DNA of 64,000 nt from Planctomycetaceae bacterium (GTDB lineage Bacteria > Planctomycetota > Planctomycetia > Planctomycetales > Planctomycetaceae). Below the pieces are notes generated by a model that ran no database searches, was not told where the DNA came from, and saw nothing but the letters and a program-made list of their open reading frames with translations. The stretch is taken from assembly GCA_002726205.1 (NCBI GenBank), contig PBSL01000037.1, forward strand, positions 1 to 64,000, given 5' to 3'. Position numbers and translations under genes: made by a program. This document shows positions 4,759-41,030 of this stretch, piece by piece (position 1 is the first letter of the stretch; every line of letters begins with the position of its first letter).

Positions 4759-6186
4759 CTAATCACTGACGGCTGGTGTTTCGTTCGAAGCATCGACGAT
4801 GACGCGGACGAGGTCGGAGAACCGCCGTGGAGCCGCAAGATCGAGACCAACCGTACGGCGATCATCGCTGAGAGTGATCAGGTCACCGACGGGATGGCCT
4901 GTCAGTTCCAGTTGTCGATGCCTCAGGGTTTCACCTGCCCTGCGTCCCGGGAATCGTGTGGCACTGGCAGCGAGTTCCTCGTGAAGAACGATCAGTCCAA
5001 GCACCGGTCGATCAAACGTAATACTCCCGGTCGTCCGCTTGAACCGCCGACGTCTGCCATCGTGCCGGGGATGGAAGTGCAGAATGAAGCTGCGGACGGC
5101 GCGGCCGGCAGGAAGCTCCAACACGGAAACTTCCTCCGCCCGGAAGTACTCGCCAGGCGCTGAAACGTTGACCTTCAACGGCCGGTCGAGCGTAGTCACG
5201 TAGCCTTCCGGCGCGACGAAAATCTCGTCATCGCTTCGTACGAAGCGCAGCCGGCGCGGCCAGGCTGGAGTGAAGCGGAATGCACCAGTCGAGCGTTCGA
5301 TCCCGGACGAGATCGGCCAGATTTTCGCGTACGGTGCCGTGTCAAAGTCAGCCGTTTCGATGTCTTCACCGTCTTCCACGCGGACTGATTCTCCTTCCTT
5401 CAGCAACAACTTCTCGCCGGAGCCGGGCAGAGCAACGTCTACTTCCCCATCAAACACGGAAACACGGGACACACCGTTGTTGTCCAAATGAATGCCGAAA
5501 GCTGTACCGAGGTCGACGACCTGAGCATTCGGAGTGTCGACTCGAAAGCCCTCGGCTCCGGGCGGAACAGTCGCTGTCAGCAATCCCGATGTGAGTTTGG
5601 CGTGTTCGGGCGACATCAGTTCGAGTTTCGCCGGTCCCTGAAGCGTGACCTCGACACCGCTGTCGAAACCCAGGCGAACGAAACCGTCCCTGAGGTCGAG
5701 TGTGGCCGCGGCAATTCGGTCACCCTTGTTGAGGTCACGTTCGCCATCCCACTCGACGTCGACCGTTTGAGAGATTGTCACGAACGGAACCTGGATCTTC
5801 GGCTGCAGCGCGACTGGTTCACCTTCCTGCGGCCGTGACAGGAACAGGCCAAGAGCGAAGACCACGCTTGCGGCGATTGATCCTGCCAGCACAATCGAGA
5901 ATCGAAGCCTGGACCATTTTCTTGACGTGCGGCCAACAGAGAGCTGCTCCGTTGATTCGAGTTCTGTGTTCTGTGTTGGATCGACACGCGTAGCAAACTC
6001 GTCCGCCTCACGCGCCCTCTTTTCCCCGCACAACTGCCCGCGTAGTTGTGCGTGGAGCAGAGCGCAGCGAGCAAACTCCTCGGCGTTCTCCGGTTCCTCG
6101 CGAATCCACGCAAACAGCCGACGGACTTCATCCGCCGAAGCTTCGTCATGCAGGTGTGCGACGATGATGTCTTCGGTGTTTTTCAC
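4759..6186 (-). CDS. FecR-like anti-sigma/regulatory membrane protein
   Basis: This is a 475-residue single-pass membrane protein. An N-terminal cytoplasmic zinc-finger-like anti-sigma region (about 1-75, with EEPENAEEFARCALLHAQLR) is followed by one membrane segment near residues 100-120. A FecR domain comes next (about 130-280, VDLGTAFGIHL and VSVFDGEVDV). The C-terminal region contains a GSITFDRPVLGLI motif and LSDDRRTVGLDL, resembling an extracellular domain seen in exported planctomycete proteins. The start is taken as GTG at 6186, because its GTG overlaps the TGA of the sigma gene (GTGA), a classic coupling arrangement. An upstream in-frame start at 6225 would run 42 bases into the sigma gene. 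Its likely role is to control the sigma factor encoded just upstream. Confidence 0.85.
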   Translation of the reverse strand: MKNTEDIIVAHLHDEASADEVRRLFAWIREEPENAEEFARCALLHAQLRGQLCGEKRAREADEFATRVDPTQNTELESTEQLSVGRTSRKWSRLRFSIVLAGSIAASVVFALGLFLSRPQEGEPVALQPKIQVPFVTISQTVDVEWDGERDLNKGDRIAAATLDLRDGFVRLGFDSGVEVTLQGPAKLELMSPEHAKLTSGLLTATVPPGAEGFRVDTPNAQVVDLGTAFGIHLDNNGVSRVSVFDGEVDVALPGSGEKLLLKEGESVRVEDGEDIETADFDTAPYAKIWPISSGIERSTGAFRFTPAWPRRLRFVRSDDEIFVAPEGYVTTLDRPLKVNVSAPGEYFRAEEVSVLELPAGRAVRSFILHFHPRHDGRRRRFKRTTGSITFDRPVLGLIVLHEELAASATRFPGRRAGETLRHRQLELTGHPVGDLITLSDDRRTVGLDLAAPRRFSDLVRVIVDASNETPAVSD

Positions 6187-36851: not shown

Positions 36852-38351
36852 ATGAACACCAGAAAACCCGATCGTCTCGAAGCCGCGCGACTGGAGAAGT
36901 TGCACAGGATCGAGGAACTGGGACTGGATCCCTGGGGACAGCGCTTCGACGATCATATCCCCATCGACGAGGCCCGTCGGCGATGCCCGGCCGAGGCGGG
37001 CACCGACGGCGACGTGGTCCGCGTGGCCGGACGGATCATGCTGCGAAACAACCGTGGCAAATTGAAGTTCTACCACGTCCAGGACTGGACCGGACGGATC
37101 CAGTTGATGGTCTCACGGGGAGATCTTTCCGAGGAACAATGGGAACTGATCGGGGCACTGGACCTGGGCGACCTGGTCGGCATCGACGGCCGCCTGCGGG
37201 TGTCGCAGACCGGCGAAAAGACGATCTTCGCCGAGAAGATCACGATGCTCTGCAAGTCGCTGGCTCAACCACCGGAGAAATTTCACGGTGCCCGGGACAC
37301 CGAGATGCTGCTCAGGCAGCGATCGATCGACCTGATCTACAACGAGGGCGTGCTCGCGAGGATGCTCAAGCGGACCCGCATCATCCACTCGATCCGCCAG
37401 ACGCTCTCCGGGCAGGGATTCGTCGAGGTCGAAACGCCCGTGTTGCACTCGGTCGCCGGTGGAGCGGCGGCCCGGCCGTTCATCACCGCGCACAACACGC
37501 TGGGCATCGAGCTGTACATGCGGATTGCACTCGAGCTGCACCTGAAACGGCTGATGGTCGGGGGGGTCGAGCGGGTGTATGAAATCGGGCGGGTGTTTCG
37601 CAACGAGGGCATCGATGCGACGCACAATCCCGAGTTCACGATGATCGAGATCTACCAGGCCTACGGTGACTACCGATCGATGATGGACCTGACCGAGCGG
37701 ATCGTCGTCGAAGCGGCCGAGGCGCTGGGCGAGGGTCTGGTGCTGCCGTGGGGTGAGGAACGGATCGACTTCACCCCGCCCTGGCCGCGACGCTGCTACG
37801 CCGAGCTGTTCGAAGAACATGCCGGCTGTCCGATGAACGACCCAGCCGCGGTGGCCGAGGTGGCCAAGCGACTCGGGATCGAGACCGACGGTGTCCACCC
37901 GGATGTCGTGATCAACGACGTCTTCGAAGCAACCGTCGAAGACGCGTTGGTGGGACCAATCTTCGTAACCGATTACCCGGCCAGCCTCTGTCCCCTGACC
38001 AAGCGAAAGGCCGATGATCCCAACGTCGCCGAGAGGTTCGAACTGTTCATCCAGGGCATGGAACTGGCCAACGCCTACACCGAACTCAACGATCCACGCT
38101 TGCAGGAAGAACTCTTCCAGACCCAGTTGGACGGCCTCGATGAAGAAGACTCGATGGCCAAGACCGACAGCGACTTCCTGACCGCCCTGAAAGTCGGCAT
38201 GCCGCCGGCTGGCGGGCTGGGGATCGGCATCGATCGCCTGGTCATGCTGCTGACGGACAGCCGCACGATCCGGGACGTGATCTTCTTCCCACTACTCCGC
38301 CCCGAATCGGTCGGAGGTCCTCCGGCCGAAACCCCGGCTGGAACAAGCTGA
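36852..38351 (+). CDS. lysS: Lysyl-tRNA synthetase, class II
   Basis: This is a 499-residue LysS. The N-terminal OB-fold anticodon-binding domain has [20 protein letters not shown]. Class II core motifs are motif 1 around [20 protein letters not shown], motif 2 [20 protein letters not shown] and motif 3 [13 protein letters not shown]. It charges tRNA-Lys. It is 36 bp upstream of the LolC/E-like permease gene. Confidence 0.97.
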
Positions 38352-38386: not shown

Positions 38387-40189
38387 ATGTACAAGATTCT
38401 GCTCTGCCTCCGCTACCTGCGAACACGCTGGATCGCGATGGCCAGCATCATCAGCGTGATGCTCGGCGTCGCCACGATGATTGTCGTCAACAGCGTGATG
38501 GCCGGTTTTGCCACCGAGATGCGGGAACGGATCCACGGCATCCTTGCCGACGTCGTCCTGGAAACACACACCCTCGACGGCGATCCCGACGCGGCGGCAC
38601 GGATGAGGGAAATCCAGGACGTGGCCGGCGAGTACATCGAGGCGATGACCGCGACAGTCGAGGTCTACGGAATGGTCAGTTTCAAGTACCGCGGTCAGGT
38701 GATCACCCGCCCGGTCACGCTGATCGGAATCGACCCGCAGACCAAGGCGGCCGTCAGCCCGCTGGTGACCAATCTCTCCTCCTTCACCAGCGGCCGACGA
38801 TTGGGATTGAAATTCGGCCCCGAATCATCGAACTGCCAGGTTATCGCGGTCACGCCCGACAGTGCCGCGGCGATTGCAGGGCTGGAGAACGGCGACGTGA
38901 TCACCGCCTGCAACGGTGACTCGGTCGAGTACACCCGCGACCTCTCCTCGCAGCTGAAGAACTCGATTCACCAACCAACCGTCTCGCTGGCCGTGCGGCG
39001 CGGCAAACGTTCCCTGGTCCTCAAAGTGAAAATCCCTCGTCCGTCGTGGGACCTGACCGCCGATGCACGAGCACACCGTCGCACCCTGATCGAACTCGAG
39101 CGGAGACGAATCGAGTGGAATCGTCCCCGCGAGATCCTCCCTGCCGGAGGAACCCCGCTGCCGCCACCCGGTTTCGACGCGGGCCCCTCCTCGGCACCGC
39201 CAACGGGCACGGCTGAACAGCTCACGCCGCCGTCCTCGCTGCCGGACGCCCCCGATCTCGACGCCCTCGATCCCCCCACGATCGCCGACGGTCACACGAC
39301 CGAAGATCCAGCCGCCTCGCTGCCGGCCTGCGTCTACCTGGGATCGGGTCTGATCGAGTTCCCGATGGAGGACAAGGAAACCGGAGAGATCCGCATCGAG
39401 CGCATGGTCCTGGCCGGTGAGGACGTCCGGATCACGACGGTTTCAGCCGGTCGTCCCCCCGAACCCCGGCACTTCACGGCAACCGTCATCGATGTCTTCA
39501 AGAGCGGGATGAGCGAGTACGACTCGAACCTTGTCTTCTGCAACCTCGAGGAACTTCAGCAACGCCGCGGCATGGTCGATCCCTCGACCGGCGATCGTGC
39601 CGTCACGTCGATCCAGATCAAGCTCAAGGACTTCAAGCACGCCGACACCGTCATCAAACGCCTGCGGGCCGCCTTTCCAGCCCACATCTACTCGGTCCGC
39701 ACCTGGCAGCAGAAACAGGGTCCACTGCTGGCAGCCGTCGAACTCGAGACCGGAATCCTCAACATCCTGCTGTTCCTGATCATCACCGTCGCCGGCTTCG
39801 GCATCCTGGCCATCTTCTACATGATCGTTGTCGAGAAGACCCGCGACATCGGGATCCTGAAGGCGCTGGGAGCAAGCTCGCGCGGGGTGATGTCGATCTT
39901 CCTGGGCTACGGCATCGCCCTGGGCATCGTCGGCAGCGGCGTCGGCGTGCTGCTGGGGCTGGTCTTTGTCTGGTACATCAACGAGATCGAATCGGGCATC
40001 ACCTGGCTGCTGGGTCGGAAGGTCTTTGACGAAACGATCTACTACTTCCCGGAGATCCCCACGGCGGTCGATCCTTTCACGGTCGCCTGGATTGCACTGG
40101 GCGCCGTGGGCATTGCCGTCCTGGCCAGCATCCTGCCGGCTCGCCGGGCGGCGAAGCTGCATCCCGTCGAGGCCTTGCGCCACGAATAA
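38387..40189 (+). CDS. LolC/E-like ABC permease with an inserted PDZ domain
   Basis: This is a 600-residue inner-membrane permease of the MacB/FtsX (LolC/E) type. An N-terminal membrane helix (about 16-44) leads into a large periplasmic domain, then three C-terminal helices (ILLFLIITVAGFGILAIF, LGYGIALGIVGSGVGVLLG, VAWIALGAVGIAVLASIL) and the tail RRAAKLHPVEALRHE. Within the periplasmic part, about residues 146-216 read as a PDZ domain (VTPDSAAAIAGLENGDVITA, then NGDSV). A Pro/Ala-rich linker of about 90 residues follows. Family length is usually near 400, so about 200 residues are additional. It is 19 bp upstream of the matching ATPase gene. Confidence 0.9.
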   Translation: MYKILLCLRYLRTRWIAMASIISVMLGVATMIVVNSVMAGFATEMRERIHGILADVVLETHTLDGDPDAAARMREIQDVAGEYIEAMTATVEVYGMVSFKYRGQVITRPVTLIGIDPQTKAAVSPLVTNLSSFTSGRRLGLKFGPESSNCQVIAVTPDSAAAIAGLENGDVITACNGDSVEYTRDLSSQLKNSIHQPTVSLAVRRGKRSLVLKVKIPRPSWDLTADARAHRRTLIELERRRIEWNRPREILPAGGTPLPPPGFDAGPSSAPPTGTAEQLTPPSSLPDAPDLDALDPPTIADGHTTEDPAASLPACVYLGSGLIEFPMEDKETGEIRIERMVLAGEDVRITTVSAGRPPEPRHFTATVIDVFKSGMSEYDSNLVFCNLEELQQRRGMVDPSTGDRAVTSIQIKLKDFKHADTVIKRLRAAFPAHIYSVRTWQQKQGPLLAAVELETGILNILLFLIITVAGFGILAIFYMIVVEKTRDIGILKALGASSRGVMSIFLGYGIALGIVGSGVGVLLGLVFVWYINEIESGITWLLGRKVFDETIYYFPEIPTAVDPFTVAWIALGAVGIAVLASILPARRAAKLHPVEALRHE

Positions 40190-40208: not shown

Positions 40209-41030
40209 ATGAGCACACCACTGGATGCCAGCCAGCAGCCGCGATCGATCGGCGCCACCGGCTCCGAGAATTCCATCTCGATGATCCCGGAACCGCCGGC
40301 GGTCACGGCTCCGGTGGAGCCGGAAGCGGCCCGCCTGGAATGCGTGGCGTTGGAAAAGGCCTTCCGCAAAGGAGACCACGTCATCCCGGTCCTGCGGGGT
40401 GTCGATATCGACGTGGCCCCCGGCGAATTCCTGTCGATCGTCGGCCAATCCGGTTCGGGCAAGAGTACCCTGTTGCACGTGATGGGGCTGTTGGACGTGC
40501 CAAGCGTCGGTGAGGTGCACTGTGATGGACGGCGGATCGACAACCTGCCCGAGAGTCAACGGGACCGGTTGCGCAACCGTGAGTTCGGGTTCATCTTCCA
40601 GTCCTACCACCTGCTTCCGGAACTGACATTGCTGGAGAATGTCGTCTCGCCGCTGTCGATCCGCTACTCGACCCTGGCCTGGTGGCAACACCGTCACCAG
40701 ATCCGCGACCAGGCAGCCGAAATCGTCGAAAAAGTCGGACTCGGCCATCGCCTCAAGCATCGGCCGGCCGAGTTGTCGGGCGGAGAAATGCAACGGACGG
40801 CTATCGCACGGGCGTTGATCGGCCAGCCGCGGGTGCTGTTGGCTGACGAGCCCACGGGGAATCTCGACTCGAACACCGGCCAGGAGATCATGTCGCTTTT
40901 GGCCAGCTTGAACGAGTTCGAGGGGCTGACTATCATCATGGTCACCCACGATGAACGGATCGCCTGCCGGGCTCACCGCACGGTGCGGCTGGGCGAGGGA
41001 AGGATCGAGATGGTGGGCCGGGCCGCCTAG
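40209..41030 (+). CDS. ABC transporter ATP-binding protein (LolD-like)
   Basis: This is a 273-residue ATPase. Walker A is GQSGSGKST (residues 79-87), the Q-loop FIFQSYHLLPELT, the signature LSGGEMQR, Walker B VLLADEPTGNLDS, and the switch His MVTHDE. It fits the LolD/MacB ATPase group and pairs with the PDZ-bearing permease encoded just upstream. Together they may move lipoproteins or another substrate out of the inner membrane. The start at 40209 has GAG bases ahead; a longer frame from 39966 overlaps the permease gene. The N-terminal 40 residues are an unusual Pro/Glu-rich extension. Confidence 0.92.
   Translation: MSTPLDASQQPRSIGATGSENSISMIPEPPAVTAPVEPEAARLECVALEKAFRKGDHVIPVLRGVDIDVAPGEFLSIVGQSGSGKSTLLHVMGLLDVPSVGEVHCDGRRIDNLPESQRDRLRNREFGFIFQSYHLLPELTLLENVVSPLSIRYSTLAWWQHRHQIRDQAAEIVEKVGLGHRLKHRPAELSGGEMQRTAIARALIGQPRVLLADEPTGNLDSNTGQEIMSLLASLNEFEGLTIIMVTHDERIACRAHRTVRLGEGRIEMVGRAA

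Follow-up and report, generated by a model that had tools for sequence, protein, structure and literature searches.

A permease of the LolC/E/F type that carries a genuine PDZ domain inside its periplasmic domain is encoded on contig PBSL01000037.1 of a Planctomycetaceae bacterium, of which positions 1 to 64,000 (hereafter, the window) were analysed. It is a real, single-origin domain insertion in an already known kind of transporter. We tentatively propose that the protein is the permease of a LolDF-type lipoprotein-releasing transporter, which gained an HtrA-type PDZ domain as an accessory tether for free C-termini. The transit of lipoproteins from the inner to the outer membrane has hardly been studied in Planctomycetes, and the presence of the PDZ domain in four genomes and its absence in their relatives provide a natural with/without comparison for a C-terminus-binding domain in lipoprotein release. 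The case also draws attention to a family with a LolDF-like extractor and no recognisable LolA or LolB, in which DUF1571 proteins are candidate carriers. No description of a PDZ domain in FtsX, MacB or Lol permeases was found in the open-access papers searched.

A LolF-like permease and its neighbors

The permease is a 600-aa open reading frame with no internal stop (Table 1). Homology to LolC/E/F is found at both ends of the protein, namely TM1 with the periplasmic core and the C-terminal FtsX part. The top NCBIfam model was lolCE TIGR02212 (1e-70, matched in two stretches), but the score of 238.8 bits is below the equivalog cutoff of 362.45 bits, and the protein is therefore called LolF-like and not an equivalog. 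The top PDB sequence match is LolF (8e-34), followed by LolC and LolE, and a profile search gave 2e-55. The full-length model (pLDDT 82.6) has its best fold matches in LolE and LolC of LolCDE (E 2e-20).

A LolD-like ATPase gene lies about 20 nt downstream, its start being placed by us at the ATG at 40209. TIGR02211 LolD is the best NCBIfam model for this ATPase, with a score below the equivalog cutoff. The gene order lysS-permease-lolD is conserved across the family; in nearly all loci the permease gene is followed by lolD, and in many it is preceded by lysS. The source genome (96% complete) has one close permease homologue, the next best match (1.5e-16) being restricted to the C-terminal part. 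The absence of a second close permease agrees with a LolF homodimer. LolDF is described as the commonest layout among Gracilicutes (PMC11784454). As judged from homology and gene order, a homodimer of this permease would form, together with the adjacent LolD-like ATPase, a LolDF-type lipoprotein-releasing ABC transporter.

Table 1. Positions of the permease gene, its parts and its neighbors in the window, and of DUF1571 genes in the source genome
Feature	Position	Strand	Basis
lysS, lysyl-tRNA synthetase	36852..38351	+	Pfam tRNA-synt_2 2e-87; conserved upstream neighbor
LolF/LolC/E-like permease with PDZ insert, 600 aa	38387..40189	+	ORF; Pfam, NCBIfam, PDB and fold matches
PDZ domain, residues 139-216	38801..39034	+	PDZ_2 3e-10; AF2 isolated pLDDT 84; Foldseek HtrA/Deg PDZ
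Pro/Ala-rich linker, residues 246-311	39122..39319	+	Alignment; model pLDDT about 47-56 over residues 250-300
Short hairpin at LolC Hook site, residues 352-360	39440..39466	+	E. coli LolC/LolE alignment; model strands 346-352 / 360-371
FtsX-like membrane domain, residues 460-593	39764..40165	+	PF02687 1.2e-18
LolD-like ABC ATPase	40209..41030	+	ABC_tran 1e-32; TIGR02211 LolD 4.7e-74
DUF1571 copies of the source genome	G000:C37:131790-132401; G000:C7:74765-75409	-; +	L155, L156

The PDZ domain and the linker

The first-pass annotation, made from the letters alone, had placed a PDZ domain at about residues 146-216 within the periplasmic domain of a LolC/E-like permease. Pfam profiles, AF2 prediction and fold search all agree with this assignment. 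PDZ_2 matched residues 139-216 with 40.7 bits (gathering score, 27), the Pfam PDZ model was above its cutoff at residues 136-193 (5e-6), and MacB_PCD matched residues 20-173 (3e-7). Compared with other family members, the domain is a net insertion of about 65 aa. The best PDZ-containing NCBIfam models are Trx7/PDZ and DegP/HtrA, and Deg/HtrA profile matches range from 1e-10 to 1e-11. When predicted in isolation by AF2 from four sequences, the domain folds (best model pLDDT 84.2, pTM 0.74; 58-84 among five models), and Foldseek retrieved the PDZ structures of HtrA1, HtrA2, HtrA3, DegQ, DegS and CtpB, with E down to 6.5e-6. Inside the full-length model, pLDDT is about 40-64 across most of the domain because only four sequences cover it. 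The GL loop and alpha-B helix are retained in all four PDZ copies, and it is from this motif conservation that binding of C-terminal peptides appears plausible. Two cysteines, at permease residues 150 and 175 (window 38834-38836 and 38909-38911), are also invariant in the four copies and possibly structural.

The protein had also been described as about 200 residues longer than usual. That excess stands in comparison with E. coli LolC (399 aa), but the PDZ domain accounts for only about 65 residues of it, and the rest is mostly the linker region. A Pro/Ala linker of about 90 residues, which had been taken as part of the fusion, turned out to be family-wide: at residues 236-312, all aligned members contain 41-143 aa of variable sequence, often rich in Pro, Ala, Glu and Asp. 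The linker of the window protein is probably disordered since model confidence is low there. Some relatives without PDZ (L038-L041) reach 600 aa by a longer linker. At the same place, 79 homologues are very variable in length and sequence, whereas outside the class many homologues are of a more compact build. Open frames of homologues outside the class are mostly about 420-550 aa, many of them near 425-500. The likely order of events, reconstructed from these comparisons, begins with a compact, LolF-like ancestor; the linker would have come next, in this class, and the PDZ domain last, in one clade.

Distribution and origin of the PDZ domain

When 84,980 species genomes were scanned for the permease, 80 loci emerged, all planctomycete by record title, and 80 proteins were aligned (the window protein and the scanned homologues, leaving out the incomplete L073). 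The PDZ domain is present in four of them (the window protein, L001, L002 and L003), all matched by PDZ models, and the other 76 have 4 to 22 residues at this site. FtsX and MacB_PCD were detected in 58 of 58 members searched with Pfam, and PDZ_2 in the same four. With 54 of those 58 homologues and 76 of the 80 aligned proteins devoid of it, the reading of the insert as a regular component of planctomycete LolE was rejected. In the GTDB family, the permease was found at E<=1e-60 in 153 of 170 genomes, and a match over the whole length including PDZ was seen, besides the source genome, in just three genomes, all from a single other genus (g58); this count for the 170 genomes is based on the extent of the best match, and members beyond the 80 were not all read individually. 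The three genomes (G167-G169) were equated with L001-L003 by length and position. The order-level sample consisted of the same 170 genomes. A query of the PDZ domain with its flanks against 392 phylum genomes matched the N-terminal flank alone, the window itself excepted. A wide occurrence of the fusion in Planctomycetes is not supported; among the genomes covered, it forms one clade of four genomes. Among the matches listed, PDB alignments to LolC/E/F leave the PDZ region uncovered.

When the conserved core was used for a maximum-likelihood tree, the four carriers formed one clade with support of 100/100, and a single change explains their distribution. The tree indicates that the PDZ domain was gained once, in the common ancestor of a small Planctomycetaceae clade. 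An ancestral PDZ domain with losses elsewhere was rejected, as the tree needs one change and losses would need many. Assembly error is excluded because three other assembled genomes have the domain at the same place. A recent copy from the same genome was also rejected, since the best other PDZ there is just 35% identical, and no donor was identified; the other PDZ proteins examined in the source genome are serine-protease-like. Relatives, unlike carriers, seemed to have a second permease (two matches versus one), but this was an artefact, in which the N-terminal part of a protein without PDZ is reported as a separate BLAST piece.

Fast evolution and constraint

Substitution rates were estimated by the Nei-Gojobori method among the four related carriers. 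Between the window protein and L001, dN is 0.55 for PDZ, 0.63 for the linker and 0.05-0.06 for the core. Against all other carriers, PDZ dN of the window protein is about 0.55-0.64 versus about 0.06 for the core; amino-acid change in the PDZ domain is therefore about 10 times faster than in the permease core and similar to that in the linker. dN/dS is nonetheless below 1 in every pair, and 0.26-0.34 for PDZ among L001-L003, although these ratios are rough because dS is high in several comparisons. Positions of the groove, a set chosen by us from the model as the GL loop and alpha-B, are invariant in 9 of 16 cases, against 16 of 63 elsewhere (p=0.02, from four related sequences). By these estimates the PDZ domain appears to be retained as a fold, yet loosely. 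With a dN on a par with that in the linker, the domain is under weak constraint and could be a passenger that the transporter can do without.

Hook, LolA/LolB and DUF1571

In E. coli, the Hook of LolC is essential and serves to recruit LolA (PMC10865981). The hairpin at this site of the planctomycete permease is shorter by about 6 residues, an approximate value from a low-identity alignment. LolA (PF03548) gave no match at E<=1 in the source genome, and Pfam LolA gave two marginal matches only in 41 family genomes; LolB had no match in 42 genomes. DUF1571 is present in all of the 41 family genomes surveyed; among the PDZ carriers, the source genome was covered. LolA_like was matched by 17 of 20 DUF1571 members (best 4.8e-6), with the copy of the source genome at 0.007, below cutoff. 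The sole PDB match of DUF1571 is a LolA-like protein, at an E of 0.24 that is by itself not significant. In both copies of the source genome, Y-x-F directly precedes the stop codon (YDF and YKF), and among 16 DUF1571 proteins from other genomes, 11 have the exact Y-x-F end and five have one to three extra residues. As a lead only, secreted DUF1571 is a candidate for replacement of LolA in Planctomycetaceae.

Possible roles of the PDZ domain

An accessory tether that binds C-termini is the best-supported reading of the PDZ domain. The single HtrA-type PDZ, inserted into the periplasmic domain of the permease in the ancestor of the clade, would grip a protein of the periplasm or outer membrane by its free C-terminus. 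This partner may be a lipoprotein client, the carrier in the periplasm or a factor of quality control. The PDZ domain would hold it close to the site of lipoprotein hand-over. Counted for this reading were dN/dS below 1, groove conservation, the HtrA-type fold, the single gain, homology to LolC/E/F and adjacency of lolD. Counted against it were the linker-like dN of the PDZ domain, the scores of lolCE and LolD below equivalog cutoffs, and the low confidence of the domain in the full-length model. The main rival, itself somewhat doubtful, is that the domain is a near-neutral passenger, folded and with no specific ligand, which is tolerated in a disordered, fast-changing periplasmic loop. The nearby linker is variable in all family members and therefore the site tolerates insertions; linker-like dN and confinement to four genomes are also in line with a passenger. 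However, dN/dS below 1 in every pair, matches of all four copies to PDZ models, somewhat higher conservation of groove positions, and retention of the domain after two GTDB genera had separated argue against it.

More specific versions of recruitment are less probable. It is distinctly unlikely that the PDZ domain acts at the transporter as a sensor or collector of proteases or of misfolded outer-membrane proteins, as PDZ domains of DegS, AlgW and DegP do, and so couples lipoprotein release to envelope stress. Its nearest relatives in profile and fold are Deg/HtrA PDZs, and PDZ domains of this type bind the C-termini of outer-membrane proteins (PMC8545111), but no protease or stress gene adjoins the permease at the locus. 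Recruitment of the carrier DUF1571 by its Y-x-F tail, by which the PDZ domain would compensate for the short Hook, is very unlikely. The near absence of recognisable LolA and LolB, the ubiquity and LolA-like matches of DUF1571, the YDF and YKF ends, the short hairpin and the binding of YxF by the DegS PDZ (PMC8545111) are in its favor. On the other hand, the tail is also found in genomes without PDZ and is therefore not selected for PDZ, the PDZ-tail binding is putative, a divergent LolA may escape Pfam, and the Hook comparison depends on a low-identity alignment. It is highly improbable that, in a diderm lineage with no recognisable LolA or LolB, the PDZ domain of the extractor would recruit DUF1571 as a replacement carrier by this tail. 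To our knowledge, tail-docking of a carrier is not known from any Lol system.

Comparison with known systems

LolF of LolDF (PDB 9w37 and others) and E. coli LolC/LolE likewise have an FtsX-type membrane domain, a periplasmic core and an adjacent lolD, whereas the planctomycete permease has the PDZ domain of about 65 aa and the long linker in its periplasmic domain. It differs also in the apparently shorter hairpin at the Hook and in a source genome without recognisable LolA/LolB. The PDZ domains of HtrA1/2/3, DegS and DegQ resemble that of the permease in fold, GL loop and profile matches, but the latter has no protease domain and sits inside an ABC permease. In type II secretion, GspC/EpsC is an export component of the inner membrane whose periplasmic part bears a PDZ domain; it belongs to an unrelated machine, and its PDZ is not inserted in a permease. 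MacB is of the same ABC superfamily branch, with MacB_PCD and FtsX domains, but has its ATPase in the same chain as the permease, and its match to the planctomycete permease is far weaker than those of LolF/E in PDB sequence and fold searches.

Elsewhere in the phylum, one locus (L042:5001-7454) has tandem permease-like stretches before lolD, a C-terminal match at 5001-5867 being followed by a full-length copy from 5892. Two close-set permease matches are likewise found on G289:C97 and G320:C214, so that tandem permease pairs may exist in some Planctomycetota.
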